64,000 nucleotides of DNA. Origin: Methanosarcina barkeri str. Wiesmoor (GTDB lineage: Archaea; Halobacteriota; Methanosarcinia; Methanosarcinales; Methanosarcinaceae). Of the stretch, positions 46,221 to 54,853 are shown piece by piece. The translations under genes and the position numbers were made by a program. The notes under the pieces are model-generated. The model saw only the letters and a program-made list of their open reading frames with translations. It did no database searches and was not told the origin of the DNA. Positions within the stretch are counted from its first letter, which is position 1. The number at the start of each line of letters is the position of its first letter. The stretch spans positions 2,604,001-2,668,000 of the forward strand of contig NZ_CP009526.1 in the NCBI RefSeq assembly GCF_000969985.1, given 5' to 3'.

Positions 46221-47747
46221 ATGGCAGGCAATAATAACGAAACTGAAAACAGGTTATGGGACGTAGCAAATGAACTTCGGGCTAATTCCGGCTTGAAAGC
46301 CTCGGAATATTCTGTGCCTGTGCTTGGATTAATTTTTCTAAGGTATGCCGAATTTAAATTTGCCAAGGCAGAAAAGGAATTGAAACTGGAGCTTGAAAAC
46401 GAATCATCCAGCAGACGAAGGAAAAAAGAAATCTCAAAAATTGATTTTCAGGCAAAAGGAGTCCTGTACCTCCCGAAAAAAGCCAGATATTCTTATCTGC
46501 TGAACCTGCCAGAAAGCGAAAACATAGGGAAAGCCGTAAATGATGCAATGGAAGCAATTGAAGCCGAAAATCCAGAACTGACCGATACCTTGCCAAAAAA
46601 CTACACATCTTTTGAAAATGACCTGCTTGTTGCTCTTTTAAAAGCCTTTAAACTGCCCCCGGAAATCAAAGGCGACGCTTTTGGGAAAATCTACGAATAT
46701 TTCCTCGGCAAATTCGCAATGGCCGAAGGCCAGAAAGGCGGGGAATTCTTCACTCCTACATCTCTTGTCAGGCTGATTGTGGAAATTATCGAGCCCTACC
46801 ACGGGAGAATCCTTGACCCTGCCTGCGGGTCAGGCGGCATGTTCGTCCAGAGTGCCCATTTCGTGGAAAACCAACACAAAGAAGCCAGTTCCGAAATTTC
46901 GATCTACGGCCAGGAAAAGGTAGCCGATACTGTTAGGCTCTGCAAGATGAACCTTGCAGTCCACGGTCTTTCAGGGGACATTAAAGAAGGCAACACCTAT
47001 TACGAAGACATTCACAACTCAGTAGACGCATTTGATTTTGTGATGGCAAATCCACCATTCAACGTGAAAAAAGTTGATTTTGAAAAAGTGAAAGGCGACA
47101 AAAGAGTCCCTCTCGGGACTCCTTCAACTGATAACGCAAATTACCTCTGGATTCAGCACTTCTGGTCAACCCTGAATGAAAAAGGCAGGGCCGGTTTTGT
47201 TATGGCAAATTCAGCATCGGACGCCAGGGGTACAGAAGCCGAAATCCGAAAGCAGCTCATAGAAGGCAATGCAGTTGACGTGATGGTCTCAATCGGCTCA
47301 AACTTTTTTTATACTGTCACTTTGCCCTGCACCCTCTGGTTCCTGGACAAAGGCAAAGCCAGAACGTCACGAAAAGATAAGATTCTCTTCATTGATGCGC
47401 GGGAAATTTTTACGCAGGTCGACCGGGCGCACAGGGAATTTACCGGCGAGCAGATTGAAAAGCTCGCTGGAATCGTAAGGAGCTACCGCGAAAAGGAAGG
47501 AAGCGAACCTTATGAGGACGTTAAGGGGCTGTGTAAGGTTGCAACACTTGACGAGGTCAGAGAGCAGGGATATTCCCTCAACCCGGGGCGGTATGTTGGA
47601 GTTGCCGAAGCCGTTGAAGAGGATTTTGATTTTACTGAAAGGCTGCAAGAGTTGAATGAGGAGCTTGAAGGGCTTAACCTTGAAGCTAGGGAACTGGAAG
47701 AACAGATTTCTGAGAATATTGAGAAATTAGTAAGGAGCGGTGTTTAA
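46221..47747 (+). CDS. hsdM: Type I restriction-modification DNA methyltransferase subunit HsdM
   Basis: A 508-residue adenine methyltransferase subunit. N-terminal HsdM helical domain ([20 protein letters not shown]) about 10-130, then the N6-Mtase core: [15 protein letters not shown], the SAM motif [13 protein letters not shown] (about 197), and the catalytic MANPPFNVK (about 275). A coiled-coil end ([20 protein letters not shown]) contacts HsdS. ATG 46221 has aagaagatg upstream. The stop overlaps the hsdS start by one base (taatg), so the two are coupled. First gene of the restriction island. Confidence 0.95.
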
Positions 47748-49087
47748 TGCCGAGAGTAAATACATCAAATTCTTGGAAAAAAGTTCCAATAAAAAATTTG
47801 TACTTGGGTTTATATGATGGACCTCATGCTACGCCTAAACCTTCTTTGAGTGGACCAATATTTTTAGGAATAAAAAATATTACTGAAGATGGTAGGCTAG
47901 ATTTATCTCAAATTAGGAACATCTCAGAAGATGATTTTCCAAAATGGACAAAAAGAGTTCTTCCAACAGAGGGAGATATAGTATTCAGCTATGAAGCTAC
48001 GTTAAATCTCTATGCAATGATTCCTAAAGGGTTTCGAGGATGTCTTGGTAGAAGGCTTGCACTTATAAGACCCGATACTGAAATTGTAAATCCAAAATTC
48101 TTGTACTATTCTTTTTTTGGAGAAGAATGGAGAAATACTATCTCTAAAAATTTAATTTCTGGTGCAACAGTTGATCGAATTCCTCTTATAAATTTTCCAA
48201 ACTTTGAAGTTTCTATACCTATTCATTCAATCCAAAGAAAAATCGCCTCCATCCTCTCTAATTATGATAATCTTATCGAAAACAACACCCGACGAATAGA
48301 AATTCTTGAACAGATAGCAAAGCTGGTGTACGAAGAATGGTTCGTTAAGTTCAGGTTTCCGGGGCACGAAAATGTAGAAATGGTATCTTCGGAATTAGGG
48401 GAGATTCCGGAGGGGTGGAAAGTAGAAAAATTATCTGAACTGGTCAAAACACAATATGGATATACAGAAAGTGCAACCGAAGAAGAAATTGGCCCAAAGT
48501 TTTTGAGGGGTAAAGATATCAATAAACAGTCATACATTTCCTGGGACGAAGTGCCTTTTTGTTCGATTTCTCCTGAAGTTTTAGATAAATATCTCTTAAA
48601 GAAAGGAGATATTGTTGTTATAAGAATGGCCGATCCCGGTAAAGTTGGAATTGTTGAAACAGAAGTTAATGCTGTATTTGCTTCTTACTTGATAAGACTG
48701 GAAATAATTAAAAATATCAAGCCTTATTATTTGTTTTACTTTTTACAGTCAGACAAATTTCAAAATTATGTAATCGCTGCATCGACAGGGACTACCAGAA
48801 AAAGTGCCAGTGCAGGTGTAATTACTAACATTGACTTAATAATTCCACCTGAATACTTATTAACATTATTTGAAGATAAAATTGGACTTCTTAGAAAGCA
48901 ATTGAATATATTAATTAACAAAAACCAAAATCTCCGCAAAACCCGCGACCTTCTTCTCCCAAAACTCATTTCAGGAGAAATCGACGTTTCGGATCTGGAT
49001 ATTAGCATAAGAAATGAGTATCAGGAGCATAATATTAATTTTGGAGAGCCACAAGATGAGGAAGGACTCAGATCTAAAATGGGCTGA
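47747..49087 (+). CDS. hsdS: Type I restriction-modification specificity subunit HsdS
   Basis: A 446-residue DNA-recognition subunit with two target-recognition domains: about 8-160 (KVPIKNLYLGLYDGPHATPK) and about 222-385 (ELGEIPEGWKVEKLSELV), separated by the central coiled coil (IDSNLIENNTRRIEILEQI; KLVYEEWFVKFRFPG) and followed by a terminal coiled coil ending TRDLLLPKLISGEIDVSDLD. Two different domains imply a bipartite, asymmetric target sequence that cannot be predicted here. It starts at ATG 47747 overlapping the hsdM stop. Its end overlaps the next gene by 32 bases. Confidence 0.95.
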   Translation: MPRVNTSNSWKKVPIKNLYLGLYDGPHATPKPSLSGPIFLGIKNITEDGRLDLSQIRNISEDDFPKWTKRVLPTEGDIVFSYEATLNLYAMIPKGFRGCLGRRLALIRPDTEIVNPKFLYYSFFGEEWRNTISKNLISGATVDRIPLINFPNFEVSIPIHSIQRKIASILSNYDNLIENNTRRIEILEQIAKLVYEEWFVKFRFPGHENVEMVSSELGEIPEGWKVEKLSELVKTQYGYTESATEEEIGPKFLRGKDINKQSYISWDEVPFCSISPEVLDKYLLKKGDIVVIRMADPGKVGIVETEVNAVFASYLIRLEIIKNIKPYYLFYFLQSDKFQNYVIAASTGTTRKSASAGVITNIDLIIPPEYLLTLFEDKIGLLRKQLNILINKNQNLRKTRDLLLPKLISGEIDVSDLDISIRNEYQEHNINFGEPQDEEGLRSKMG

Positions 49088-49628
49088 CCTGAAAAAATCA
49101 CTTCAGAAATCAGACAAGAAAGAGCTTTTAAATGCCATTCAGGAGCTTTATAAGTATTCCGAAGACAACAGAAGATATTTGCTTGCCAGGTTTATTGATA
49201 AGAAAGAGATCCCTAAAGTTCTGGAAGAGTACAGACAGATAGTTATAAATGAATTTTTCCCGGAAATGGGGATTGGAGAGCTTCGATACTCTGTTGCGGA
49301 AAAAGCAATTAAGGAATATTCGGAAGCATCCGGGGATTTTATCGGGAAAATGGAGTTGATGCTTACTTATGCGGAAAATGGAGTGAAATATACAAACGAA
49401 TATGGAGACATAGATGAAGAGTTCTACGACAAAATTAATGACATGCTTGAACAGTTTTGCGCTTTGTTGAAAACACCTGAAGGGCAATCACTTTATCCGC
49501 ATTTCAGGGAACGGCTTCTTAAAGTCCGTGATGATTCGGAAGAAATCGCCTGGTGTTTTGGGGATGCGGTTGATATCCTCATTACGAATATTGAAGATTT
49601 TTTTGAAGAAGTGCAGAATGATTCGTAA
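49056..49628 (+). CDS. DUF6155 family protein, in hsd operon
   Basis: A 190-residue, probably cytosolic protein rich in charged helices. The N-terminus has WADLKKSLQKSDKKELLNAI; the middle EYRQIVINEFFPEMGIGELR; the end HFRERLLKVRDDSEEIAWCF and IEDFFEEVQND. I place it in DUF6155 from the DLKKxLxxxxKxELLxxIxxLY-like start and the helical layout; function unknown. ATG 49056 lies inside the end of hsdS (32-bp overlap), with ggagag upstream, so it is part of the hsdMS transcript. A second, broken copy follows hsdR (54142-54853). This repeated linkage suggests a role with the restriction system. Confidence 0.75.
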   Translation: MRKDSDLKWADLKKSLQKSDKKELLNAIQELYKYSEDNRRYLLARFIDKKEIPKVLEEYRQIVINEFFPEMGIGELRYSVAEKAIKEYSEASGDFIGKMELMLTYAENGVKYTNEYGDIDEEFYDKINDMLEQFCALLKTPEGQSLYPHFRERLLKVRDDSEEIAWCFGDAVDILITNIEDFFEEVQNDS

Positions 49629-49675: not shown

Positions 49676-49892
49676 ATGGAACTGGAAGAAATCCTGCAGA
49701 AGACTGAGGGACGACCTGGATTTCCTTAAAACAAAAGTTCTCGAAATCGAAAAAAGCCTTGAGTTAATTGACAGTGAGCTGCACCCTGTAAGAGAAGAAT
49801 ACCTTGAGAGACTGGACGAGATCAAAAAAGAAGGGACTATTTCGGGAAGCGAATTTGAAAAGAAATTTGGGGTAATTTACAGAACGTCCTGA
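49676..49892 (+). pseudogene. Small coiled-coil protein broken by one base
   Basis: ATG 49676 starts MELEEILQKTE; after an extra g in gaggga, the downstream frame continues DDLDFLKTKVLEIEKSLELI then EEYLERLDEIKKEGTISGSE and ends VIYRTS. Removing one base restores a protein of about 71 residues, largely coiled coil. It follows the DUF6155 gene by 47 bp. A frame-repair or a sequencing error would both explain it. Confidence 0.6.
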
Positions 49893-49914: not shown

Positions 49915-50679
49915 TCATTGATGTATTTTTTGAAGAGGGACAGAATAAATAAACATATTTCTTTTGACTTTTTTAAGTCTTTCGTACTCGTTTTCATAAC
50001 AATCAAGAACTCGCTGGAGCGAATTCTTTGTAGTCTCATTTTTGACCAGAAAGAAGAATATAATCTCATTGTCCGAAGTGTATAGCGGCAAAACTCCCAT
50101 TTTTTCTTTTAACTCCAGAAACCGCTTATGCAAATAATCAGGATGTTTTTTGAATTTTGGGAAATGCTGGTAAATCATAATTGTGGAGTTCTGATCCATT
50201 CGGTCGTAAAGGTTTTTTACTTCACTGTATAGGAGATGTTTCTCTCTGGAATACTTAACTTCCAATCCTATATCCGGATCTATAAAAATTAAAGAGTTTG
50301 TCAATAGTTCCCGGGGTATTTCACTGAAATACTCTTTTCGGACCTGTTCCTCAAAATACAAGCCTTTCTGCCCTTTGTAAATAGAGATTTTGTGATCTTT
50401 TGAATTAAAGTAAGATTCAATGGAATTGATATCTCTTTCATTAGCTTTTACATCTTTATATGGTTCAAGGAATTCCACGAGCTTTTCATTGTGAGTACCA
50501 GGTAGGTTATGAATTTTCGCTTTCTGAAAATCCCTTTTGTTTCCTTCATTACTAGAATCGTTTTTGTTAAGCATAGGGATGAAAGTTAGATGTTGTAAAG
50601 AATCGTTCTTTTCCAGGATATTAAGGATCAAATCATACTTGAAAAGGTCTCTCAGGTCTCCAAAAAACTGGTTTTTCAT
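49915..50679 (-). CDS. Conserved protein of unknown function, antisense within the hsd island
   Basis: A 254-residue soluble protein between hsdS/DUF6155 and hsdR on the opposite strand. Motifs: an N-terminal FFGDLRDLFKYDLILNILEK, FIPMLNKND, a central LLTNSLIFIDPDIGLEVKYS, HLLYSEVKNLYDRMDQNSTI and MIYQHFPKFKKHPDYL. The pattern SLIFIDPDIGLE followed by YDRM and a hydrophobic strand looks like a Rossmann-like core with an acidic catalytic or binding site, as in nucleic-acid-processing proteins, but I cannot place the family. ATG at 50679, with an AT-rich promoter region to the right. Confidence 0.65.
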   Translation of the reverse strand: MKNQFFGDLRDLFKYDLILNILEKNDSLQHLTFIPMLNKNDSSNEGNKRDFQKAKIHNLPGTHNEKLVEFLEPYKDVKANERDINSIESYFNSKDHKISIYKGQKGLYFEEQVRKEYFSEIPRELLTNSLIFIDPDIGLEVKYSREKHLLYSEVKNLYDRMDQNSTIMIYQHFPKFKKHPDYLHKRFLELKEKMGVLPLYTSDNEIIFFFLVKNETTKNSLQRVLDCYENEYERLKKVKRNMFIYSVPLQKIHQ

Positions 50680-50835: not shown

Positions 50836-53800
50836 GTGTTGAAAATGGTTGCCGAGATAAAAAATAATGACGGATCAGCGAGAAACGATGTTTTAAAAGA
50901 AGAAGATGAATCAGGTTCTGGTGATTATAGTGAAGGCACCCTCGTAGAAGAGTCCGCAATCCGAGAATTCGAAAAACTGGGTTATACTTTTTTAAACTGC
51001 TTCAATGAAAAAATCAGGCTTGACGGAAAAGGGACACTGGGCAGGAAAACAAAATCCGAAGTATTGCTTTTCAGGAAACTGAGAGAGGCAATCAAAAAAC
51101 TCAATCCTGAGATTTGCCCCGAAGCTGAAGAGTCCGCAATCCGGGAACTGGCAAAAGACAGGAGCAGGCTTAGCCCTGTAAAGGCAAATCAGGAAATTTA
51201 TTCATTAATCAAAAACGGGGTCAAGGTCAAAGTCCGAAATGAAAAAGGGGAAATTGAAGACCGGACCATAAAGATTATCGATTTTGAAAATCCCGAAAAT
51301 AACGACTTCTTTTTAGCTTCCCAGTTCTGGATTATGGGAGAAATGGAATCAAGGCGGACCGACCTTCTGGGATTTGTTAACGGGATTCCTTTAATTTTTC
51401 TTGAGCTAAAATCGACTGCCAGAAGGGTCAAAGAGGCTTTTGACGATAATCTTACAGACTATAAAGAAACAATTCCACAGCTTTTCTGGTACAATGCATT
51501 TATAATCCTCTCCAACGGCAGAGACTCAAAAATCGGCACTGTTACAAGCGGTTTTGATCATTTTGGGGAATGGAAAAGGGTTGAAGATGAAAATGAAACA
51601 GGAAGTACCCTGCTGGATACAATGATAAAGGGAACCTGCGAAAAAAGCCGCTTCCTTGATATCCTGGAAAACTTCACGCTTTTTTCTAGCAGTGAAGGGC
51701 ACTCAGTCAAAATTGTTGCCAAAAATCACCAGTACCTTGGAGTTAATAATGCCATAGAGTCCTTCAAAAAACGCAATGAGGATGAAGGAAAAATCGGTGT
51801 CTTCTGGCACACTCAGGGTTCTGGAAAAAGCTATTCCATGATATTTTTTACCCAAAAAATCCTGCGAAAATTTCCTGGCAATTACACCTTCGTGGTCGTA
51901 ACCGACAGGGATGAACTGGACGAGCAGATATATCAGAACTTCCAGAACGCAGGCGTAATAAGCGAAGTTGGCGTACAGGCCAGAAGTAGTAGGCATCTCA
52001 GGCAACTGCTAACTGAAGACCACAGGCTGGTTTTCACTTTGATCCACAAATTCGGGACTAACAAAGGAGTTAAGCATCCCCTACTTTCGGATAGAGATGA
52101 CATTATAGTAATTGCAGACGAAGCCCACAGGACCCAGTACGACACCCTGGCGCAAAACATGAGAGATGCTCTGCCGAATGCGAATTTTATAGGTTTTACA
52201 GGCACGCCTTTAATGGCTGGCGAAGAAAAGACAAAAGACACATTCGGAGACTACGTAAGCATCTACAACTTCATACAATCGATAGAAGATGGAGCAACCG
52301 TCCCCCTCTATTATGAAAATCGCGTGCCTGAAGTCCAGTTGCATAACGAGAGCCTCAATGATGATATTTATCGAGAAATCGAAAAAGCAGGTTTGAATGA
52401 TGAAGAAGAATCCAAACTTGCTACCGACTTTGCAAAGGAATACCAGATAATCGTAAGGGAAGAACGCCTGGAAACGATTGCAAAAGACATTGTAACGCAT
52501 TATACCACACGTGGTTACGCCGGAAAAGCCCTTGTAGTATCCATTGATAAGCTTACAACGGTCAGGATGTACGATAAAGTCCAGAAATACTGGAAAATGC
52601 ATATTAACGAACTCAAAGAAAAGAGAAAAGAAATAACTGAAGGTAAGAAAGCTATAGATCTGGAAAAACAGATCTCCGAACTTGAAAACACTGATATGGC
52701 AGTCGTTATCAGCGAAGGGCAGAATGAGGTAAAGAAATTTGAGGAAAATGGGCTGGATATAAGGCCACACAGGAAAAGAATATCTGTGGAAGATCTGGAA
52801 GAAATTTTCAAGGATTCAACAAGTAAGCTCAAAATTGTTTTCGTGTGCAGCAAATGGAGAGAAGGGTTCGATGTCCCCTCGCTTTCCACGATTTATCTTG
52901 ACAGGCCCATGAAGGACCACAGCCTCATGCAAACGATTGCCAGGGCAAACAGGGTCTTTGGAGATAAACCCGGAGGCTTCATTGTCGACTATGCTGGTAT
53001 TTTCAGAAATCTTGAACAGGCCCTCAAGATTTATGCAACGCCCAGATCTGGCGGAGTTGAAATCCCACTCAAGCCGAAAGAAAAACTTGTGGAAGCCCTT
53101 GAACAGAAGCTTAAAGAAATAAATAAATTCCTTTCCGGCCTTTCGGTAAATCCTGACAAAATCATCAAGATGAAGTCGAGTTTTGATAAAATAAATCTCT
53201 TGAAAAACGCAACTGATGCTATTCTCATAAACGAGTCAACAAAAAAGAAGTTTTTAACCGAAGCTGGGACTGCTCTAAAAATATACAAATCTATACTTCC
53301 CCACAAACGGGCCTCAGAGTTTTTTCCACAGGTAACTCTTTATGAAGAACTGGTAAACGAAATTCGTTCTCTTGATCCTGAAGTCGATATCTCAAGAGTA
53401 ACGGACGGTATACAGCGAGTCCTCGATACATCGATTAAGCCCAGAGAATATATAATCAAGGAATCAAAAAAGGGCAGAATAATTGCTCTTAGAGATATCG
53501 ACTTTGATGCCCTGGCAGATAGATTCGATAAGCAGCATAAGAACACTGAGTTTGAATGGCTAAAAAATCTTCTCTCGTACAAACTAAAAGAAATGGTTAA
53601 AATTAATAACAGCCGCCTTGATTACCAGAAAAGTTTTGAAAAACTGATCGAAAATTATAATTCAGGCTCTGATAACTCAGATTATCCTTACAGAGAACTA
53701 ATCGAATTTGCTAAAAAGCTGAAAAAAGAAGATGAGAGAGCAATAAAGGAAAATTTAACTGAAGAAGAACTCTCCCTCTTTGACAAGCTAAAAAAACCTG

Positions 53801-54066
53801 ATCTAACCGAGAAAGATAAAAAACAGGTAAAGCAGGTTGCAAGAGATCTGCTTTCCACACTAAAAGCTGAGAAACTCGTTCTGGACTGGCGGAAAAAACA
53901 GCAGGCAATGGCCGCAGTTAAAAAAGAAATTGAAGACGAACTTGATAAGGGACTGCCCGAATCATACGACTCCAGAATCTATGAAGAGAAATGCAATACA
54001 GTCTTTCAGCACATTTATGATTCTTATGCCGGTGACAGCCATAGCATTTATGAAGCAATAGCCTGA
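50836..54066 (+). CDS. hsdR: Type I restriction endonuclease/translocase subunit HsdR
   Basis: A 1076-residue motor and nuclease subunit. N-terminal nuclease domain (about 40-250) with the PD-(D/E)xK-like IPLIFLELKSTARR (Glu-x-Lys), then the superfamily-2 helicase: Walker A FWHTQGSGKSYSM (about 323), DEAH-type IADEAHRTQYDTL (about 427), FTGTPLMAGEEK, and motif VI-like LMQTIARANRVFGD. The C-terminal helical domain has many charged helices (QKLKEINKFLSG, FDKINLLK). GTG 50836 has agggg twelve bases upstream; TTG 50839 or ATG 50845 are alternatives. With HsdM and HsdS it forms a full type I system that cuts foreign DNA lacking the methyl mark. Confidence 0.95.
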   Translation: MLKMVAEIKNNDGSARNDVLKEEDESGSGDYSEGTLVEESAIREFEKLGYTFLNCFNEKIRLDGKGTLGRKTKSEVLLFRKLREAIKKLNPEICPEAEESAIRELAKDRSRLSPVKANQEIYSLIKNGVKVKVRNEKGEIEDRTIKIIDFENPENNDFFLASQFWIMGEMESRRTDLLGFVNGIPLIFLELKSTARRVKEAFDDNLTDYKETIPQLFWYNAFIILSNGRDSKIGTVTSGFDHFGEWKRVEDENETGSTLLDTMIKGTCEKSRFLDILENFTLFSSSEGHSVKIVAKNHQYLGVNNAIESFKKRNEDEGKIGVFWHTQGSGKSYSMIFFTQKILRKFPGNYTFVVVTDRDELDEQIYQNFQNAGVISEVGVQARSSRHLRQLLTEDHRLVFTLIHKFGTNKGVKHPLLSDRDDIIVIADEAHRTQYDTLAQNMRDALPNANFIGFTGTPLMAGEEKTKDTFGDYVSIYNFIQSIEDGATVPLYYENRVPEVQLHNESLNDDIYREIEKAGLNDEEESKLATDFAKEYQIIVREERLETIAKDIVTHYTTRGYAGKALVVSIDKLTTVRMYDKVQKYWKMHINELKEKRKEITEGKKAIDLEKQISELENTDMAVVISEGQNEVKKFEENGLDIRPHRKRISVEDLEEIFKDSTSKLKIVFVCSKWREGFDVPSLSTIYLDRPMKDHSLMQTIARANRVFGDKPGGFIVDYAGIFRNLEQALKIYATPRSGGVEIPLKPKEKLVEALEQKLKEINKFLSGLSVNPDKIIKMKSSFDKINLLKNATDAILINESTKKKFLTEAGTALKIYKSILPHKRASEFFPQVTLYEELVNEIRSLDPEVDISRVTDGIQRVLDTSIKPREYIIKESKKGRIIALRDIDFDALADRFDKQHKNTEFEWLKNLLSYKLKEMVKINNSRLDYQKSFEKLIENYNSGSDNSDYPYRELIEFAKKLKKEDERAIKENLTEEELSLFDKLKKPDLTEKDKKQVKQVARDLLSTLKAEKLVLDWRKKQQAMAAVKKEIEDELDKGLPESYDSRIYEEKCNTVFQHIYDSYAGDSHSIYEAIA

Positions 54067-54141
54067 AAAAAAAGATTCTATTCGGATTAATACTTATAAT
54101 GAGATTCAGGAAACGTAACTTTTGCCTTATGGAGCTGTAAA

Positions 54142-54853
54142 ATGAGAAATACTCCGGACTTAAGGTGGCTTGACTTAAAAAATGCCCTAAAAAACACAGA
54201 CCGAAAAGAGCTTATTAATATTATTCGGGATCTTTACAGGTATTCTGAGGAAAATAGAAGGTATCTGCTGCCAGATCCATGAATACAAATGCTGAGCCCA
54301 GGATTCTGGAAGCTTACAGGGAAGTAATAAAAAATGAGTTTTTTCCGAAAAAGGGGCACGGGACGCTCAGGTACTCGATTGCAAAAAAAGCAATTAGCGA
54401 CTATTCGAAGGCTTCCGGGGATTTTGCAGGGACAATGGAGTTGATGCTTTTTACGTCGAAAATGGGGTGGAATTTACCAACGAATATGGAGATATAGACG
54501 AGGAGTTTTATCAAGGAGCCTATCCCAAAACCAGCTTTATCCTCAAATAGATAAAAGTTTCAGAACTATTTTCCGTGATCTGAAAACCATTGATCATTCC
54601 CTATTCAAGATTTAGAGAAGCAGTTTTGAGTTATGGGATAGGCTCAAGAAATATACAAATATACAGTGCCTTTGACGAGTTCTGCACAAGGTTAGAAACA
54701 CCTGAAGGCGAAACACTTTATGACGGTTTCAGGGAAAGGCTTTTGAAGATCCGCAGGAAAACAAAAGGAATGGAATGTGGATTTGGAGACGGAATAAAAC
54801 TGCGTGTTAGAGAAATTGAAGATTTTTTTGAAGAAGACGTGCAGGACAACTGA
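54142..54853 (+). pseudogene. Second DUF6155 copy, frameshifted and MITE-disrupted
   Basis: The N-terminal part starts at ATG 54142 (PDLRWLDLKNALKNTDRKEL, SEENRRYLLPDP then TGA). After that the frame shifts to NTNAEPRILEAYREVIKNEF and YSIAKKAISDYSKASGDFAG, another shift gives SKMGWN. The MITE at 54516-54645 then interrupts it, and the end HGFRERLLKIRRKTKG-like GETLYDGFRERLLKIRRK and EIEDFFEEDVQDN follows. Homologous throughout to 49056-49628. Confidence 0.85.
54516..54645. mobile_element. IS5-type MITE (130 bp)
   Basis: Terminal inverted repeats gagcctatcccaaaac and complementary ttatgggataggctc, matching those of the IS5 element at 26846-27702. A 3-bp direct repeat aag flanks it (54513-54515 and 54646-54648). 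No coding capacity. It is inserted in the DUF6155 pseudogene. Confidence 0.85.

Follow-up and report, generated by a model that had tools for sequence, protein, structure and literature searches.

Does a gene that lies between two subunit genes of a restriction system, and is read against them, belong to that system, and what might its product do? We pursued this question in a 64,000-nucleotide stretch of Methanosarcina barkeri str. Wiesmoor (NZ_CP009526.1, positions 2,604,001 to 2,668,000; hereafter the window, numbered from its first letter). A preliminary description had located a protein of unplaced type at 49915-50679 and drawn attention to the segment LIFIDPDIGLEVK and to YDRM and QHFP patterns following it. 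The coordinates are correct and the gene lies on the minus strand, where an ORF of 254 aa extends from an ATG at 50679 to a stop at 49915; a plus-strand reading of the interval is ruled out, as its frame is interrupted by stops. All three segments are found in the translated ORF, which, for reasons given below, we refer to as the RlmJ-like gene. Against its nearest relative, a Methanosarcina protein of 72% identity, dN/dS amounts to 0.22 over 237 codons (Nei-Gojobori, own script), and the gene is thus under purifying selection.

The surroundings are indeed those of a restriction system, as had been proposed, and this system is of type I. Upstream, on the plus strand, lie hsdM (46221..47747; Pfam N6_Mtase and HsdM_N, PADLOC MTase_I) and hsdS (47747..49087; Methylase_S), followed on the same strand by a DUF6155 gene (49014..49628; PF19652, E 7.8e-11), which a homologue from the Methanosarcina genome G008 matches from 49056 onwards in tblastn, and by a match to a 68-aa protein of G008 (49698..49874; tblastn, 90% over 59 aa). 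Downstream, hsdR (50836..54066, plus strand; HSDR_N, SWI2_SNF2, TIGR00348) diverges from the RlmJ-like gene across 156 bp. A further seven Methanosarcina genomes encode HsdR orthologues of 82-91% identity, the match being partial in one. For six of the seven, we set the hsdS-hsdR interval against that of the window and looked for the RlmJ-like gene, for DUF6155 and for the ParE-type gene pair found in G008. Of the seven orthologous loci thus compared, two have the RlmJ-like gene, the window and G008, in reverse orientation in both; the G023 interval contains none of the genes looked for. DUF6155 is found once in G008, twice in G016, three times in G003 and four times each in G007 and G027, some copies being broken. 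Both genes of the ParE-type pair occur in G016 and G008, only the 68-aa partner in G007 and G027, and neither in this interval of G003; in the window, the ParE-type toxin gave no tblastn match at E 0.01. In Methanosarcina, hsdS and hsdR of this locus enclose a slot with variable cargo, none to four copies of DUF6155 as well as ParE-type genes, and the RlmJ-like gene, found in only two of the loci compared, is optional cargo in it. The comparison shows no consistent presence across orthologous hsd loci of the kind that would mark a type I component and speaks against a fixed role in restriction; because the gene has its own orientation and is missing from most of the orthologous loci compared, its product is probably not a restriction-enzyme subunit.

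Three further points may be recorded here. The stretch at 49698-49874 is perhaps a solitary antitoxin remnant, the toxin gene being intact in G008 and G016; the 68-aa protein, which has no Pfam match, was taken as the antitoxin from its position beside the ParE-type toxin in G008. A second DUF6155 copy, split over three frames, lies downstream of hsdR at 54112-54850. For DUF6155 itself, no paper was found in one literature library.

Profile searches with the window protein did not place it in a described family. It had no Pfam match above the cut-off, and up to E 1 only ORC3_ins appeared, below the cut-off; NCBIfam gave no match, PADLOC none up to E 1, a PDB sequence search none, and PHROG weak matches only. 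Several candidate identities were set aside. The ORC3_ins match is weak and partial, and the window protein is its sole matcher among the 75 aligned family members described below; a PhoH-like match is likewise weak and partial. TcmP was rejected as nearest family, the window protein having no NCBIfam match and a literature search bringing nothing helpful, and CopM, found in the PDB with the alignment profile (E 0.0056 and 0.01, 58 profile positions), is a partial match that the fold lists do not support. The RsmJ model of Pfam (PF04378) was not matched by the window protein and is absent from the best 25 of 42 families for the 75 members.

A scan of genome contigs with the single protein returned no relatives, and it was an alignment query that found them: 119 in species genomes and 2 in viral contigs. 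We retrieved 80 of the 119, which together with the viral ones make up 82 family loci. The window protein and the proteins of 74 of these loci form a 75-row alignment, from which near copies (L062, L069, L077, L101), broken or partial sequences (L081, L082, L086) and one protein with a long extra part (L093) were left out. The members, mostly metagenome-assembled, come from Methanosarcina, Methanoregula, Methanoperedens, Methanophagales, Dehalococcoidia, Planctomycetota, Pseudomonadota, Acidobacteriota and others, with Methanosarcina sp. DH2 as the closest named carrier found. The gene was detected in 2 of 30 genomes of the genus Methanosarcina, in 19 of 392 genomes of the phylum, searched with the L003 protein (own genome counted), and in 7 of 398 proteobacterial genomes, including the search centre as a known carrier. 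The distribution of the family across archaea and bacteria is patchy.

In a maximum-likelihood tree, both Methanosarcina proteins fall within a supported set of 13 rows that includes seven Chloroflexota sequences (95/94); their neighbours are Methanophagales and Chloroflexota, and archaea and Chloroflexota are intermixed. This mixing suggests transfer between the domains, although misbinned contigs may contribute and a pattern of this sort is no proof. In the same tree, the protein of a 'Fermentibacteria' contig is near-identical to that of a Methanolinea contig (L060/L066, branch 0.026), and the contig is probably misbinned. Phage records yielded no family match with two queries; plasmid records yielded one match with the window protein and three with the L119 protein. 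On a conjugative plasmid of Ensifer (L130/L200; NZ_CP118613.1, 49642-51947), a member sits between two GIY-YIG nuclease genes and overlaps one of them. The patchy counts, the mixing in the tree and the comparison of the hsdS-hsdR slots support the view of the gene as mobile accessory cargo. Literature on RlmJ-like and YhiR proteins, on MntA-HepT with methyltransferases and on HEPN-MNT fusions, as represented by the listings and abstract openings of one library, contained no description of the family.

The Rossmann-like layout suspected in the preliminary description is borne out by structure prediction, which it had suggested together with a comparison with methyltransferases and nucleases. 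An AlphaFold2 model of the window protein, built on the 75-row alignment, reached a pLDDT of 94.6 and a pTM of 0.92. Foldseek against the PDB returned weak matches, mostly methyltransferases, the best at E 0.03 and nothing below that value. In a closer structural comparison, a re-alignment of Foldseek's top 1000 chains, RlmJ and its Legionella homologue occupied ranks 1-9 and 11, with 4blv as the best structure (Z 10.2, rmsd 4.7, 207 residues aligned), followed by METTL16 (Z 9.4) and spermidine synthases (Z 8.6 and below). METTL16 thus trailed RlmJ by less than one Z, which the tool counts as a tie, and we therefore repeated the comparison on a model (pLDDT 92.3) of the bacterial L119 protein, which shares 23% identity with the window protein. 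Here, RlmJ took ranks 1-10 (Z 10.3-11.2, rmsd 3.9-4.4, 193-204 residues aligned), the best other structure scoring 8.4, and Foldseek placed RlmJ at rank 1 as well (E 1.3e-4, prob 1.00). A BFVD fold search gave weak matches of methyltransferase type (best E 0.012). In the window model, strand 1 leads into two helices (51-56 and 65-76), at the place of the helical subdomain of RlmJ. At the level of profiles the resemblance is faint: hhalign of the family against RlmJ gave a probability of 4.7%, with a best segment restricted to the N-terminal helix and strand 1, and in a column-shuffle control one of 60 shuffles outscored the real profile. RlmJ thus ranks first with both models, and the two predicted structures show the RlmJ variant of the class I methyltransferase fold. 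The protein is a real, conserved and uncharacterised member of a widespread family with the RlmJ shape; going by the models, this is an RlmJ-like methyltransferase-fold family and not RlmJ itself. Shared descent with RlmJ is probable, inclusion in the RlmJ family improbable.

Conservation across the 75 members goes well beyond chance in the core that the preliminary description had highlighted. Invariant in all 75 rows are D8, D134, P135, D136 and G138; 74 rows share D11, R114 (50338..50340; this and the following positions on the minus strand) and Q171, 73 share G7, 70 share K14 and E153, and 66 share H172. The columns of DPDIG and QHFP are among these, whereas YDRM is not among the columns conserved in at least 60% of members. 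DPDIG (residues 134-138; 50266..50280) follows strand 129-133, which we take as the strand carrying methyltransferase motif IV, and YQHFP (residues 170-174; 50158..50172), with Y170 in 66 of 75 rows, lies at the end of strand 166-172. The core, which had been described as catalytic, is conserved and probably catalytic. Residues 36-38 after strand 1 (50566..50574), at the position of the class I AdoMet glycine loop, read MLN in the window protein and MLT in most members (M36 in 70, L37 in 72 and T38 in 69 of 75 rows; with residue 35 included, the usual sequence is P/W-M-L-T). Over the stretch from residue 39 to residue 129, conservation attains 90% at L67 and R114 alone.

RlmJ offers a framework for reading these residues. 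It is the 23S rRNA m6A2030 methyltransferase, with DPPY as motif IV and a helical subdomain between strands 2 and 3; Y4, H6, K18 and D164 are needed for its activity, and K18A and D164A abolish it (PMC3814359). All RlmJ rows in the structural comparisons of both models start at an offset of +4 (2 to 6, 1 to 5, 5 to 9). For the motif X-like N-terminal segment (residues 2-18; 50626..50676), this offset appears to put D8, D11 and K14 on RlmJ N12, D15 and K18, provided that the alignment is gap-free up to K14, as we infer. D134 is taken as the counterpart of the catalytic D164 from strand order and the DP motif. On this basis, the catalytic pair K18/D164 of RlmJ appears to be kept as K14 (70/75) and D134 (75/75). 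Other parts of the RlmJ site have no conserved counterpart: at the +4 offset, Y4 would precede the first residue, and H6 meets residue 2, which is K, N, Q or R; sequence columns, as opposed to a superposition, show no conserved equivalent of AdoMet motif I (H42, G44, G46) or of the motif-II acid (E118) among the 75 members; and W195, like these other RlmJ residues invariant in a set of 21 RlmJ sequences, has no conserved counterpart in the matching stretch. From that set, L128, L140, L143, L149, L153 and L154 had been left out as partial, with a stop or motif-negative. The (N/D)PP(Y/F/W) motif IV of m6A amino-methyltransferases is absent as well, DPDxG standing in its place in 75 of 75 members.

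How much of the RlmJ chemistry has survived such replacements? A housekeeping rRNA methyltransferase, that is, an archaeal counterpart of RlmJ, would agree with the fold and the Lys/Asp pair; the patchy distribution, the lack of several RlmJ invariants and the co-occurrence of RlmJ, above the Pfam cut-off, in 4 of 12 carrier genomes make it the least probable of the explanations considered, and we give it hardly any weight. Far more serious, if still a minority view at perhaps half the weight of our preferred reading, is the possibility that the fold was kept and methyl transfer lost, with DPD and D8/D11 binding a metal or another ligand and the old pocket serving a hydrolase or a different transferase. 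The invariant second acid D136, at a position where RlmJ has Pro, Ser or Ala, would fit this, as would the missing glycine loop and motif-II acid and the high rank of spermidine synthases in the structural lists of both models. Spermidine synthases use the same fold with a different AdoMet derivative and transfer an aminopropyl group. RlmJ uses this very Lys/Asp pair for methyl transfer, and its apparent retention argues against such a loss. The best explanation remains, at about even chances, that of an RlmJ-like protein of class I methyltransferase fold, carried as mobile cargo, which most likely modifies nucleic acid, and RNA sooner than DNA. The proton acceptor would be D134 in the DPDxG loop, a part that D164 plays in RlmJ, and K14, in the N-terminal helix, would orient D134 and the base in the manner of K18. 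The cofactor half of the pocket, by contrast, would have been rebuilt, with MLT for the glycine loop and DPD for DPP, and because of this rebuilding we infer, as we do for substrate and chemistry, that the donor would be either AdoMet bound in an altered way or a different donor.

The preliminary description had further regarded the protein as a good candidate for a defence-linked enzyme and had proposed a survey of its genomic neighbours. That it might work as part of the type I system, or serve defence independently, is suggested by its place between hsdS and hsdR in two Methanosarcina genomes and by a few relatives. With the HsdM, HsdS and HsdR of the window, tblastn found type I relatives at 4 of the 82 family loci (L043, which is the G008 locus, L085, L111 and L124), those of L085 and L111 within 10 kb of the family gene. 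On the viral contig L124 (839-11745), hsdR, an AAA (McrB-like) gene, McrC, the RlmJ-like gene and a further gene stand nearly in a row, constituting a defence island, in which the RlmJ-like gene comes after these three. When three of 14 large neighbours were compared with the PDB, one proved to be a helicase (a 1750-aa DEAD/DEAH protein in L120), one had no match and one was a copper ATPase. DEAD/DEAH helicases of such kind are also known from defence loci. Across the family, such neighbours are few. PADLOC and Pfam scans covered 136 of 178 non-redundant near neighbours, from 57 loci, with all 14 proteins over 700 aa left out; no PADLOC family occurred in more than two of the 136 proteins, single ones matching type I, type II and candidate defence models (without a control), and the Pfam matches were for the most part to metabolic families, the most frequent single family being phage integrase (4 of 136). 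Together with its absence from five of the seven orthologous loci and its opposite orientation, these counts make a role in restriction or defence improbable. A defence link thus stands for the position in the window and for a few relatives such as L124, and as a character of the family as sampled it is not borne out.

The survey did find defence genes beside some members, but toxin-antitoxin and metabolic genes were seen more often. The neighbouring ORFs were called by a greedy procedure with a rough composition filter, so that spurious and missed small genes exist among them, the hepT of L100 being one that was missed. Some settings recur, by our own reading of the sequences. Several Dehalococcoidia carry the gene within a leucine operon; in L049, L052, L058 and L068 it lies between the two isopropylmalate dehydratase genes, and in L049 and L068 a HicB or HicA gene accompanies it, an insertion into a metabolic operon. 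Methanoregula relatives repeatedly occur near a 2-oxoacid:ferredoxin oxidoreductase and a thermosome gene.

Toxin-antitoxin genes provide the most interesting lead. Among 102 small proteins encoded within 1.5 kb of the family gene (from 79 loci), 13 of the best 25 of 57 Pfam families were toxin-antitoxin families by our own classification, generic HTH not counted; overlapping models and the several such genes of L048 inflate this list. A control of 102 small proteins encoded at distances above 3 kb in the same contig set (from 150 sampled of 210 left after removal of near copies) had two among the best 25 of 47, HepT-like and ParE. Toxin-antitoxin genes confirmed by Pfam lie near the family gene at 11 or more of the 79 loci (L043 via its duplicate L002, L048, L049, L055, L068, L085, L088, L100, L102, L104 and L117), and also in G041; for L104 and L085, confirmation extends to a single partner. 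The closest association is with MntA-HepT. In L100 and L102, the protein continues into a C-terminal MntA-type nucleotidyltransferase domain (E 2.5e-9 and 9e-14), whose gene end is overlapped by hepT, and ORFs and motif indicate the same arrangement in L101; these fusions (L100:10001-11312, L101:10001-11315, L102:10001-11348) come from Rhodocyclales/Sulfuritalea and a beta-proteobacterial genome. In G041, the RlmJ-like gene overlaps mntA, which in turn overlaps hepT. Linked mntA and hepT were recognised by Pfam in L003, L100 and L102; around the RlmJ-like gene of the window there are none.

Such arrangements would also suit a protein that assists toxin-antitoxin modules, MntA-HepT in particular, in a non-catalytic or regulatory capacity, an idea that the fusions, the overlapping genes of G041 and the enrichment within 1.5 kb all favour. 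Against it, Pfam-confirmed genes of this kind were found near only 11 of 79 loci, a lower bound, the invariant acidic residues favour catalysis, and these modules gather in mobile regions anyway, for which reason the whole link may be one of shared mobility. A control counts against the link as well: in 300 genomes of the order, a fusion query had matches in 84, full-length only in the query genome and in most others to an MntA-type domain alone, so that stand-alone matches of this type are common. We regard a purely regulatory partnership as rather unlikely. Slightly more speculative still is a combination with the preferred reading, in which a mobile RNA-modifying enzyme would work with toxin-antitoxin modules: the MntA fusion would protect RNA from the HepT ribonuclease by modifying the RNA or HepT itself, in a three-part system whose RlmJ-derived enzyme has a rebuilt and possibly AdoMet-independent DPDxG site.

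These results give a predicted fold and a testable active site to an archaeal and bacterial family for which our scans found no Pfam or NCBIfam model. They suggest that the catalytic Lys/Asp pair of a methyltransferase fold can outlast the replacement of the cofactor motifs, and the recurrent toxin-antitoxin link, including the MntA fusion, raises the testable question of whether an enzyme of RNA-modification type takes part in MntA-HepT systems. They also urge caution, in that one restriction-locus neighbour is insufficient to call a gene 'defence'.

Set beside known systems, the RlmJ-like gene shares its slot between hsdS and hsdR with DUF6155 and, in some genomes, ParE-type pairs, but encodes a distinct protein and is read in the opposite orientation in both carrier genomes. 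With MntA-HepT (MNT-HEPN) modules, some family members are fused or overlapping, whereas most of those examined have no such module nearby; passages on these modules in the literature mention no RlmJ-like partner (PMC2701414). Spermidine synthases have the class I methyltransferase fold in common with the family (Z 8.6 over 178 residues for the window model, 8.4 over 167 for that of L119), yet score below RlmJ by about 1.6 and 2.8 Z, respectively. RlmJ (YhiR, PF04378; PDB 4BLU, 4BLV and 4BLW) is the closest comparison. It differs in its glycine loop (H42, G44, G46), its conserved motif-II Glu, its Y4/H6 tail and the conserved Trp at the end of strand 5, all of which the family lacks, and in having DP[PSA][YF] where the family has DPDxG; the family gene, moreover, is scattered patchily over archaea and many bacterial phyla. 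What the two have in common is the predicted fold over nearly the whole chain, the helices after strand 1, the N-terminal G-[DN]-x-x-D-x-x-K helix, the catalytic Lys/Asp positions and the DP at motif IV.
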